DNA from: a virus
DNA length: 64,000 bases
Virus record (IMG/VR): IMGVR_UViG_3300042290_000327
Location: 56,716 to 120,715 of that record
Strand: one strand, 5' to 3'
The position numbers were made by a program, and so were the translations under genes. The notes beneath the pieces are model-generated. The model saw only the letters and a program-made list of their open reading frames with translations, searched no databases and was not told the origin of the DNA. Below are positions 4,238 to 64,000 of the stretch, piece by piece. The stretch's first letter is position 1; each line of letters starts with the position of its first letter.

Positions 4238-4254
4238 GGCAGGGAGGCCGAGGG

Positions 4255-4328
4255 GCGAGCGGAGGGGCGTTTCCCTCTCTCGCACCGAAGGTGCCACGCG
4301 CATTCTCATCAAAAGCCCTACCGGGCTT
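4255..4328 (+). ncRNA. GC-rich cluster of three hairpins (structured RNA or terminator)
   Basis: In the 135-base gap 4238-4372 three stems can be drawn. GCGAG (4255-4259) and GGAGGG (4261-4266) pair with CCCTCT (4273-4278) and CTCGC (4279-4283). GCACC (4282-4286) pairs with GGTGC (4290-4294). AAGCCC (4313-4318) pairs with GGGCTT (4323-4328). The region is far more GC-rich than its surroundings. The last hairpin lacks a strong T-run, so it is a weak terminator at best. Confidence 0.35.
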
Positions 4329-4906: not shown

Positions 4907-5174
4907 CTTTTTATACAAAGTACTTATGAAAGACGGCAAGAGTAAAGGACAATGGCAGGACTGGGATAAGGCATATGCAAAGACTAGGTCGGTGATATGG
5001 AGCTGTAACAAGGAAGAGCATCTGGAGGCAGGACTGAGGATGGTGATAAACTATGAGAGACTAATGCAAAACTTCGGCCCTACTTCGGTACAAGGCCGGA
5101 GGATTGGAGCCGGGACAGTTGATGATCTCCTTTCTCTCATTAGGTTAAAACGTAAGATGATTAGGAGAGGATGA
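4896..5174 (+). CDS. hypothetical protein, 92 aa
   Basis: The frame opens at 4824, but the first 24 codons give an unlikely Met/Ile-rich N-terminus and overlap the upstream gene. The ATG at 4896 gives MKNNFLYKVLMKDGKSKGQ and a natural overlap of eleven bases. The product is a basic, mostly helical 92-residue protein. No family is recognised. It is the last gene before the AACCGT repeat region. Confidence 0.5.
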   Translation: MKNNFLYKVLMKDGKSKGQWQDWDKAYAKTRSVIWSCNKEEHLEAGLRMVINYERLMQNFGPTSVQGRRIGAGTVDDLLSLIRLKRKMIRRG

Positions 5175-5414
5175 TGAAGGGAGTAAACCGTAGCGTATAT
5201 AAAGATATTTGTATAGAGTGATATAAAGATATTAAGATATAAATTATGTATAAACTTAAAGCAAAGAGTGAAGTTAAAGCAAAGCTTTAATAGCTAGTAC
5301 CTGCCTCCCTCCCTTGCAACTTTTCTTCTATAGAAAATTATTATTTTTCAAACCTTAAAGTAAAGCTTTAAGTATTCAGTAAACCGTAGATAAAACCGTA
5401 GACTAGTAAACCGT

Positions 5415-5597
5415 ATGCAGAAAACCGTCCATGCAATCATCAGTGCTTTAACCGGCAGAAAACCGTACCTACTAGGTAACCGTCCAGAGGAAACCGTACA
5501 AGGTAACCGTAGGGAGAAAATCGTAGAGAGTACCGTACAGCCGTCTGTAAGGCTGGTTATAAACCTGGAGACTGGAACAGTTAAAGTAAAGCTTTAA
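5415..5597 (+). CDS. doubtful small ORF inside the repeat array, 60 aa
   Basis: ATG at 5415 to TAA at 5595-5597 could encode 60 residues. The central part is low-complexity (NRPEETVQGNRREKIVEST), because the AACCGT repeats are translated in mixed phase. No promoter or leader of the kind seen at neighbouring genes precedes it. It may be a by-product of the repeats rather than a gene. Confidence 0.25.
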   Translation: MQKTVHAIISALTGRKPYLLGNRPEETVQGNRREKIVESTVQPSVRLVINLETGTVKVKL

Positions 5598-5661
5598 GGT
5601 TTTAGAAAACCGTACGGAGGTAACCGTCTGGTAAACCGTAGGGAAAAAACCGTCCTGAAAG

Positions 5662-5692
5662 TTGTCTCCTGCTCTAAGGGTTCGTATCTTTA
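5662..5692 (+). promoter_or_regulatory. TTG-N20-TATCTTTA promoter
   Basis: TTG at 5662-5664, TATCTTTA at 5685-5692, spacer 20 bases, ending in GTTCG like the other copies. It drives the membrane-protein gene at 5710 and lies directly after the last AACCGT copy, so the array may act on it. Confidence 0.75.
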
Positions 5693-5709
5693 GATGAAAG
5701 AAAAAGGTT

Positions 5710-6057
5710 ATGACAAAGTTGGTAAAAGATTTGAGCGGGATAGCGCTAGTGGTGATGCTGCTAGTAGGAGGAGTTTTTGGCTGGGTCTACTCCCTAGCTA
5801 CTTTACTGTCCAGTAGAGAGGACCTGCCCGGGGTACTAAAGGCTAGCTTCAGAGGAAGCCTTATAGGAGTAGTAGCGCTAATCTACTTAGGGGTAACATA
5901 CCCAGACGCCTCTTCGGATATGTGGCTGGTGATCGCCCCGGGCTTCTGTGCTTCGGTCTGGTATCTGCTAGGGCCGGAGTTAGATAAAAAGCTAAAGGCA
6001 GGTATAGGTCTAGCCATAGCAGTAGGTGTACTAGCCTACATGGTGACTGCAGTCTAG
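5710..6057 (+). CDS. small integral membrane protein, 115 aa
   Basis: Four hydrophobic segments are visible near residues 9-28, 49-64, 72-88 and 96-115, separated by short polar loops (SSREDLPG; YPDASSD; GPELDKKLKAG). This predicts a four-pass inner-membrane protein. No family is recognised. It has its own promoter and is bracketed by AAAGCTTT repeats. It could be an early host-takeover or superinfection-exclusion protein, which is inference from its size and position only. Confidence 0.6.
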   Translation: MTKLVKDLSGIALVVMLLVGGVFGWVYSLATLLSSREDLPGVLKASFRGSLIGVVALIYLGVTYPDASSDMWLVIAPGFCASVWYLLGPELDKKLKAGIGLAIAVGVLAYMVTAV

Positions 6058-6206
6058 ACTTCAAGCAAAGCTTTAAGTTAAAGTAAAGCTTTAAGGTTTG
6101 AGTATAAGGTACCGGCCCGTCTACTCTTCCGCCTCTCTTCCAAGGGCAGGCCCGTCAACCATCCTAAATGTACGAAAAAATCTTTTAGTGACAAACTTTA
6201 TTTTAG

Positions 6207-62251: not shown

Positions 62252-64000
62252 ATGGCTAATAATAAGTTTGTTGCCCGGAACGGCATCCTATCGAAAGATG
62301 ACTCGGTAATTTCCGGTAGCCTAGCTATCTCAGGAAGTCTTTCAGTCAGTATTGTCCCGGTTGATAACGCCTTAACTAGCTTCTTAGTACTAGCCGCAGA
62401 CGGAACAGTTAAGACTCGGTCAACTGGAGCACAAGGTATTCAAGGTATTCAAGGTACCCAAGGTACCCAAGGCACACAAGGTACGACAGGTACTCAAGGT
62501 ACTCAAGGAATTCAAGGTATAACAGGCACCCAAGGTATTCAAGGAAGACAAGGTACCACTGGTACTCAAGGTATAACAGGTACCCAAGGTATTCAAGGAA
62601 CTCAAGGTACTACTGGTACTCAAGGCACAACGGGTGCTCAAGGTATTCAAGGTATCCAAGGTATTACTGGTACTCAAGGTACTCAAGGAATTCAAGGGAC
62701 CCAAGGTACAACAGGTACCCAAGGAATCCAAGGCATAACAGGTACCCAAGGTATTCAAGGAAGACAGGGTATAACAGGTACTCAAGGTACTACTGGTACT
62801 CAAGGTATTCAAGGTACCCAAGGTACTCAAGGTACTATCGGAACTCAAGGTATTCAAGGTACCCAAGGTACTCAAGGTACTATCGGAACTCAAGGTACTA
62901 CTGGTACTCAAGGTATCCAAGGTATTCAAGGTACTACCGGAACTCAAGGTACTACTGGTACTCAAGGTATCCAAGGTATTCAAGGTACTACCGGAACTCA
63001 AGGCACTACTGGTACTCAAGGTACAACAGGTACCCAAGGTATACAAGGTATAACTGGTACTCAAGGTATCCAAGGCATAACAGGTACCCAAGGTATTCAA
63101 GGAAGACAGGGTATAACAGGTACTCAAGGTACTACCGGAACTCAAGGCATTCAAGGTACTCAAGGTATTCAAGGTATTCAAGGGACTCAAGGTATTACTG
63201 GTAATCAAGGCACAACAGGTACCCAAGGTACTACCGGAACTCAAGGTACCCAAGGTACAACAGGTACTCAAGGTATCACCGGTACCCAAGGAATTCAAGG
63301 AAGACAAGGTATAACCGGAACTCAAGGCACTACCGGAACTCAAGGTATCCAAGGTATAACTGGTACTCAAGGTATTACTGGTACCCAAGGGACTACCGGA
63401 ACTCAAGGTACAACAGGTACTCAAGGTATCCAAGGTACTCAAGGTATCCAAGGTACTCAAGGTATCCAAGGACCTGGATTTACTACAATTACTAATTTCT
63501 CTAGTAGCAGGGTTCTAACTTCAACAGGTGCTAATACAGCCAACGCTGAGGTTAACTTAACTTTTGACGGCAGTATTTTAAGAGTAACAGGAAGTGAAAT
63601 TATAAAAGGCGGAGCTAACGTTCTGCTAGTTCAAGGTTCAGGATCTACAGCAAATACAACAGTTTTTGCCGTAGACGGAAACAGTGGCAGGTTATTCGAA
63701 ATTACTGATGATCTAACAGGAGATATCTTTACAGTCTCAGATATATCAGGTACACCATTCCTTAACGTAGATGCAAGCGGTAATATCGAAGCAGGTATTT
63801 CCGGATCAACTACTACCGTCTCAGGAAGTTTAAAGCTTGAGACTCCTCTCACAGATAATGCATTAACAGATTTTCTTGTAAGAGCTTCAGACGGTACACT
63901 AAAGACTAGAACTTCAGGAGCACAGGGTATTCAAGGTACTCAAGGAACTACTGGAACTCAAGGAACTACCGGAACTCAAGGTATCCAAGGCATAACAGGT
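62252..64000 (+). CDS. collagen-like tail fibre, 3' end beyond the window
   Basis: ATG at 62252; the frame stays open to the window end (583 codons, no stop). A fibre-type start (residues 1-58, VDNALTSFLVLAADGTVKTR) is followed by about 116 Gly-x-y triplets (62426-63469), mostly GTQ, GIQ, GTT and GIT. A globular beta domain follows (63470-63925), including a second copy of the pre-collagen module (TDNALTDFLVRASDGTLKTR), and then a new run of GTQ/GTT triplets. Collagen-like regions form triple helices in phage fibres. The repeats are prone to length change by recombination. Confidence 0.85.
   Translation, partial: MANNKFVARNGILSKDDSVISGSLAISGSLSVSIVPVDNALTSFLVLAADGTVKTRSTGAQGIQGIQGTQGTQGTQGTTGTQGTQGIQGITGTQGIQGRQGTTGTQGITGTQGIQGTQGTTGTQGTTGAQGIQGIQGITGTQGTQGIQGTQGTTGTQGIQGITGTQGIQGRQGITGTQGTTGTQGIQGTQGTQGTIGTQGIQGTQGTQGTIGTQGTTGTQGIQGIQGTTGTQGTTGTQGIQGIQGTTGTQGTTGTQGTTGTQGIQGITGTQGIQGITGTQGIQGRQGITGTQGTTGTQGIQGTQGIQGIQGTQGITGNQGTTGTQGTTGTQGTQGTTGTQGITGTQGIQGRQGITGTQGTTGTQGIQGITGTQGITGTQGTTGTQGTTGTQGIQGTQGIQGTQGIQGPGFTTITNFSSSRVLTSTGANTANAEVNLTFDGSILRVTGSEIIKGGANVLLVQGSGSTANTTVFAVDGNSGRLFEITDDLTGDIFTVSDISGTPFLNVDASGNIEAGISGSTTTVSGSLKLETPLTDNALTDFLVRASDGTLKTRTSGAQGIQGTQGTTGTQGTTGTQGIQGITG
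62426..63469 (+). repeat. tandem 9-bp repeats encoding Gly-x-y triplets
   Basis: About 116 units of nine bases, dominated by GGTACTCAA-like and GGTATTCAA-like units. Occasional GGAAGACAA (GRQ) units lie at about 62539, 62759, 63099 and 63299. The high identity between units suggests slippage or unequal exchange. Confidence 0.85.

Follow-up and report, generated by a model that had tools for sequence, protein, structure and literature searches.

Organisation of the repeat locus

The DNA analysed here, in the following called the window, comprises 64,000 nucleotides (positions 56,716-120,715 of the 120.7-kb virus record IMGVR_UViG_3300042290_000327) and comes from a T4-like phage (gp23/gp20) related to Flavobacterium phage immuto. 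Immuto, the nearest cultured relative, has a genome of 160 kb and capsid genes resembling gp23 and gp20, and in these phages essentially all genes lie on the + strand. The features found at the locus are collected in Table 1. The small protein encoded directly upstream of the repeats forms a three-helix bundle in which no DNA-binding fold was recognised; homologs of it are located elsewhere in immuto (~26.7 kb) and, in contig L050, at the position taken by the exchangeable gene in the window.

Table 1. Features of the repeat locus in window coordinates.
Feature	Position	Strand	Remarks
Small three-helix protein gene	4926-5174	+	Adjoins the array on its upstream side; conserved in all five AACCGT lineages
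First AACCGT	5186-5191	+	Immediately after the upstream gene; opens conserved block AACCGTNGCGTATATAA
AT-rich candidate DNA-unwinding element	5196-5255		Melting ease
Inverted repeat TTAAAG-N5-CTTTAA	5274-5290
Inverted repeat TTAAAG-N5-CTTTAA	5355-5371
Candidate iteron block, 8 AACCGT (5382-5505)	5382-5510	+	Extended unit AGNAAACCGTM
Small ORF over part of the array	5415-5597	+	Open in the window and the sister clade
Two decayed units (AATCGT 5519, TACCGT 5531)	5519-5536	+	Intact in the sister clade
Inverted repeat TTAAAG-N5-CTTTAA	5581-5597
Candidate iteron block, AACCGT at 5608, 5622, 5634 and 5648	5608-5653	+
Bacteroidota-type early promoter of the exchangeable gene	5661-5693	+	Motif scan
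Exchangeable gene, 115-aa membrane-like protein	5710-6057	+	No Pfam or PHROG match
Inverted repeat, one mismatch	6060-6076
Inverted repeat TTAAAG-N5-CTTTAA	6078-6094
Conserved structured RNA leader	6100-6163	-	Covariance model R1 match 6100-6181
Covarying hairpin of the RNA leader	6131-6147	-	Two-sided changes
Early-type promoter, GTTTG ... TACATTTAG	6164-6196	-	Motif; points at the array

The initial annotation had described 13 AACCGT hexamers in one direction, and all 13 were recovered on the + strand at exactly the coordinates given there (5186, 5382, 5394, 5409, 5423, 5461, 5478, 5492, 5505, 5608, 5622, 5634 and 5648), with none on the - strand of 5175-5709. In 2000 dinucleotide shuffles of this 535-bp stretch AACCGT occurred 0.34 times on average and three times at most, and in 1000 shuffles no hexamer of any kind exceeded seven copies. 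Neighbouring copies are 12, 15, 14, 38, 17, 14, 13 and then 14, 12 and 14 nt apart, apart from two long gaps of 196 and 103 nt. The latter gap contains the two decayed copies of Table 1, both of which are exact AACCGT in the sister clade. Comparably clustered hexamers elsewhere in the window are limited to a coding repeat at ~62.4-63.5 kb; the region 62430-63981 is a long coding-type repeat with an 18-nt period (GTQGT-like, collagen-like).

Also confirmed was the promoter directly downstream of the array (GTTG-N20-TATCTTTAG at 5661-5693). The extent was understated at first: the conserved unit extends from ~5186 to 6196. Overlooked as well had been the AT-rich stretch, the inverted repeats, and the minus-strand promoter with its structured RNA. 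In the AACCGT group, GCGTATATAA and then the AT-rich stretch come after the first single unit. In the 120.7-kb record this stretch is the third easiest-melting 60-bp locus (z -3.8). The corresponding stretch ranks as number ~29 (moderate) in a 173-kb relative and is weak in immuto. The inverted repeats hold their arms with five variable central bases, and in three genomes the perfect-arm form is confined to the array locus.

A second conserved non-coding element of the + strand was seen at 4238-4302, a G-rich/pyrimidine-rich stem followed by CACCGAAGGTGCCACGCGCA, with no match in Rfam. Its 20-mer at 4283-4302 is found in 52 viral stretches (~22 distinct contexts), among them the 173-kb relative, which has it twice, and immuto, where it lies at ~42.5 kb downstream of groEL.

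The array in related phages

Using the conserved 22-mer right of the array as recruiting pattern we retrieved 27 contigs, and the locus was found in 18 distinct phage lineages, five with AACCGT and 13 with ACCCGT. Immuto is among the 13, ACCCGT replacing AACCGT in the corresponding gap. In 18 distinct lineages the array co-occurs with the RNA/promoter, and every distinct contig with enough flank has an AACCGT or ACCCGT array left of the 22-mer, except L050; the one further contig found with the 17-mer core has the array too. L084 was found by the array pattern alone and carries the RNA element on its minus strand (E 1.6e-14), hence the link between array and RNA is independent of how the loci were found. 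In L050 (IMGVR_UViG_3300025508_000049) the antisense RNA is present, and where the array would lie the sequence is C-rich and contains different short repeats (CCTCACTACGTC, CCCGCCRTC), perhaps a further switch of the iteron sequence. Contigs nearly identical to the window have the same array, a clade at 91% (on DUF932) has 13 AACCGT and a clade at 78% has eight. The antisense RNA was not found in the more distant DUF932 relatives L024 and L025.

When units were pooled, the hexamer turned out to form the centre of an extended motif, AGNAAACCGTM or TWGWNACCCGTTY. The units run in one direction in 17 of the 17 loci tallied, without any reversed copy, at modal spacings of 14 (AACCGT) and 12 nt (ACCCGT) and an overall period of ~12-14 nt. 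The even spacing is clearest in the ACCCGT group (11-13), where usually two array blocks are placed around a conserved core, roughly 280-350 nt. Each genome has one array locus. The longer motif shared across lineages, the single direction and the period strongly support the initial suggestion that the array is a multi-copy binding site, for which it is a candidate on sequence grounds.

The gene in the interval between array and RNA is less constant. It is another ORF in L016 and L021, yet another in L084 and several in the immuto group, and L034 has no gene there. The ORFs of L016 (8742-9083) and L021 (10437-10781) look GIY-YIG/T5orf172-like by eye, without Pfam support. The motif scan of the 173-kb relative gave no + promoter between array and ORF. 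As the 5710 gene is swapped or absent in relatives that keep the array, the array is not a private regulator of this gene.

The minus-strand promoter and its predicted antisense RNA

At a distance of ~450-1200 nt right of the array lies an early-type promoter motif on the minus strand, directed back through the array. In three genomes the motif GTT[GT]-N17-23-TANNTTTAG gave 19-26 plus-strand matches, most of them in the early region, and 2-4 minus-strand matches per genome, one of which is beside the conserved RNA element in all three.

The structured leader lies downstream of this minus-strand site. Across 13 sequences its hairpin shows 8 two-sided changes against 1.7 in shuffled alignments, and none of 500 shuffles reached 8. 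The invariance of the 22-mer is partly due to its use as recruiting pattern, and the covarying helix lies outside it. Covariation is confined to this one helix; the outer helix is mostly invariant and is broken in L084 and L050, and folding of single leader sequences was mostly no better than for shuffles. Against Rfam 15 the window had no hit at the gathering threshold and the locus none with E values up to 1; immuto had one sub-threshold ctRNA match. In bacterial genomes the exact RNA core was found in one phage contig of a MAG bin (L198), other occurrences looking like chance. As judged from the alignment, the predicted antisense RNA is a new covariation-supported family. The idea that RNA from the array pairs with ACGGTTATG start contexts was considered and rejected, as immuto keeps A(A/C)GGTTATG contexts though its array is ACCCGT.

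A putative replication origin and its alternatives

On balance we lean towards reading the locus as the place where a T4-like Bacteroidota phage starts its replication, an origin that combines iterons with antisense transcription. This reading draws on the co-occurrence of a conserved one-direction array with the RNA/promoter in 18 lineages and on its single locus per genome, on the inverted repeats confined to the locus along with a candidate unwinding element, and on a minus-strand promoter that is near-unique where essentially all genes are on the + strand. The RNA covaries and the array persists through gene swaps; T4 oriE has the same plan, and AACCGT arrays are found in lambda-O-like initiator genes. 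Further, immuto encodes its own DnaB, DnaG, PolA, SSB and RecA. We suggest that a phage-encoded initiator, which we infer, would bind the iterons and the AT-rich stretch would open, and that transcription from the minus-strand promoter would open the duplex or provide a leading-strand primer, much as is thought for the early promoter at T4 oriE and as R-loop transcripts do at oriF/oriG. Loading of the helicase, primase and polymerase encoded by the phage would follow. A regulator acting as a dimer on the promoter or the initiator would bind the inverted repeats.

Several observations count against an origin: HTH_36 was not found above cut-off in seven related records, the protein encoded next to the array lacks a recognised DNA-binding fold and has its immuto homolog elsewhere, immuto has only a weak unwinding element, and the 450-1200 nt between promoter and array is farther than at T4 oriF/oriG. 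GC skew shows no origin-like reversal at the array; GC and AT skew are uninformative here as one strand carries essentially all of the genes.

The initial annotation saw no confident gene in the gap and pointed out that a conserved protein encoded across the array at 5415-5597 would make the repeats coding. The former holds for the most part, the exception being this ORF, which is open in the sister clade too (60 and 75 aa in window and sister clade; pS 0.36 vs pN 0.15) and has a third-position excess only in its last 25 codons (13 of 20 changes, p=0.004 for a zone picked afterwards). Signs of such a protein are thus weakly present in two sister clades, and the ORF may be a genuine young coding overlap there, but it fails to explain the repeats. 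It spans 5 of the 13 hexamers, leaving eight outside, and the hexamers fall in all three frames; a comparable ORF was absent from the other lineages examined (L040, L084 and L034), and TAG and TAA are common in the linkers of the ACCCGT group. That the array is a by-product of a conserved small protein is largely refuted and hardly credible.

It is also conceivable, though we think it unlikely, that the minus-strand transcript itself is the functional molecule, a long antisense regulatory RNA with the covarying leader as structural domain and the ACGGTT/ACGGGT repeats as single-stranded protein or RNA binding sites or decoys. The minus-strand promoter with its covarying leader and the linkage of RNA and array in 18 lineages agree with this, as do units all of one sense, which therefore would not pair among themselves. 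The transcript would however be antisense to exchangeable genes and interrupted differently in each lineage, it has no conserved terminator or end, and units repeating every 12 nt, nearly one turn of the helix, fit binding to double-stranded DNA better. Control of the nearby early promoters by a phage factor bound to the repeats, a broader form of the regulatory array suggested initially, seems quite improbable to us: the array does border the cluster of early + promoters on its left side, and lies in the window directly upstream of one of them, but there is a single array for 14-24 promoters. Relatives exchange or lack the 5710 gene, and the 173-kb relative has no + promoter ahead of its ORF. 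These observations speak against such control as well, and on their account we disfavour, of the two readings offered initially, the regulatory array for the 5710 gene and favour the replication iterons. P1 pac has hexamer clusters, and by analogy the repeats might mark a DNA-packaging (pac) or partition site; the terminase gene of immuto is ~52 kb away and neither an early promoter nor an antisense RNA would be expected at a pac site, and we give this explanation very little credence.

With regard to the favoured origin reading, we speculate, with low confidence, that the locus might represent a new class of origin in which the structured antisense RNA, with a covarying domain of its own, is a dedicated replication primer or initiator RNA acting with an iteron array that has undergone an AACCGT/ACCCGT recognition switch between lineages.

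Comparison with known origins

Lambda-O-type origins share with the present locus the hexamer AACCGT, placed head to tail at 10-15 nt. Arrays of this kind lie mid-gene in lambda-O-like initiators of unrelated phages (L096, L098, L099, L100, L108, L111, L112 and L114) and apparently are their origin iterons. HTH_36, the domain of lambda-O-like initiators, was above cut-off in 5/5 of the tested genes, and the three run against PHROGs all matched 'replication initiation O-like', three more being alike by eye only. The viral scan behind this observation was made for AACCGT, with no claim that AACCGT is special compared with other hexamers, and most of its clusters were period-3 or period-6 repeats, likely coding, which were excluded. 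In lambda-O-type origins the iterons are inside the initiator gene, whereas here they lie in no O-like initiator gene and are non-coding in most lineages. No protein with HTH_36 above cut-off was found in the seven related records, so phages with this locus do not appear to be members of the lambda-O-like system. A search for hexamer arrays in 385 genomes from a single bacterial class gave a few simple repeats and was uninformative on initiator genes.

Several same-orientation direct repeats of one unit, as in iteron origins generally, are present at the locus, and iteron plasmid origins such as R6K gamma also have inverted repeats and an AT-rich stretch, the latter a candidate element here that ranges from strong in the window genome to weak in immuto. 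Their unit is ~20 nt as compared with ~12-14 here, and the present locus differs in having no adjacent rep gene, an inverted repeat without the iteron sequence and no similar DNA in PLSDB. The T4 R-loop origins oriF and oriG have in common with it a promoter-driven transcript directed at an easily melted region, but they use a middle-mode promoter within ~100 bp and no iterons, whereas the promoter here is of early type and 450-1200 nt off.

The start step of replication is poorly understood even in phage T4, and beyond T4 hardly anything is known about where large lytic phages have their origins. At T4 oriE, 12-nt direct repeats are syntenic in related phages and an early promoter is needed, and the role of the iterons has been called 'ill defined' (PMC3016281). 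The present locus shares with oriE a cluster of ~12-nt direct repeats, synteny among relatives, an early-type promoter, as recognised by its motif, and a gp23/gp20 myophage as carrier (PMC3016281). The repeat sequence appears to differ, and further differences are the inverted repeats, the covarying RNA leader, the exchangeable genes and the long non-coding region, in which the array usually forms two blocks. We regard T4 oriE as the closest known parallel and the best match in plan, a likeness for which homology is not claimed. An oriE-like plan of ~12-nt iterons and an early promoter would then recur in a distant phage group, and a cultured isolate (immuto on Flavobacterium LMO8), a natural switch of iteron specificity and a conserved RNA would make the oriE iteron question directly testable.
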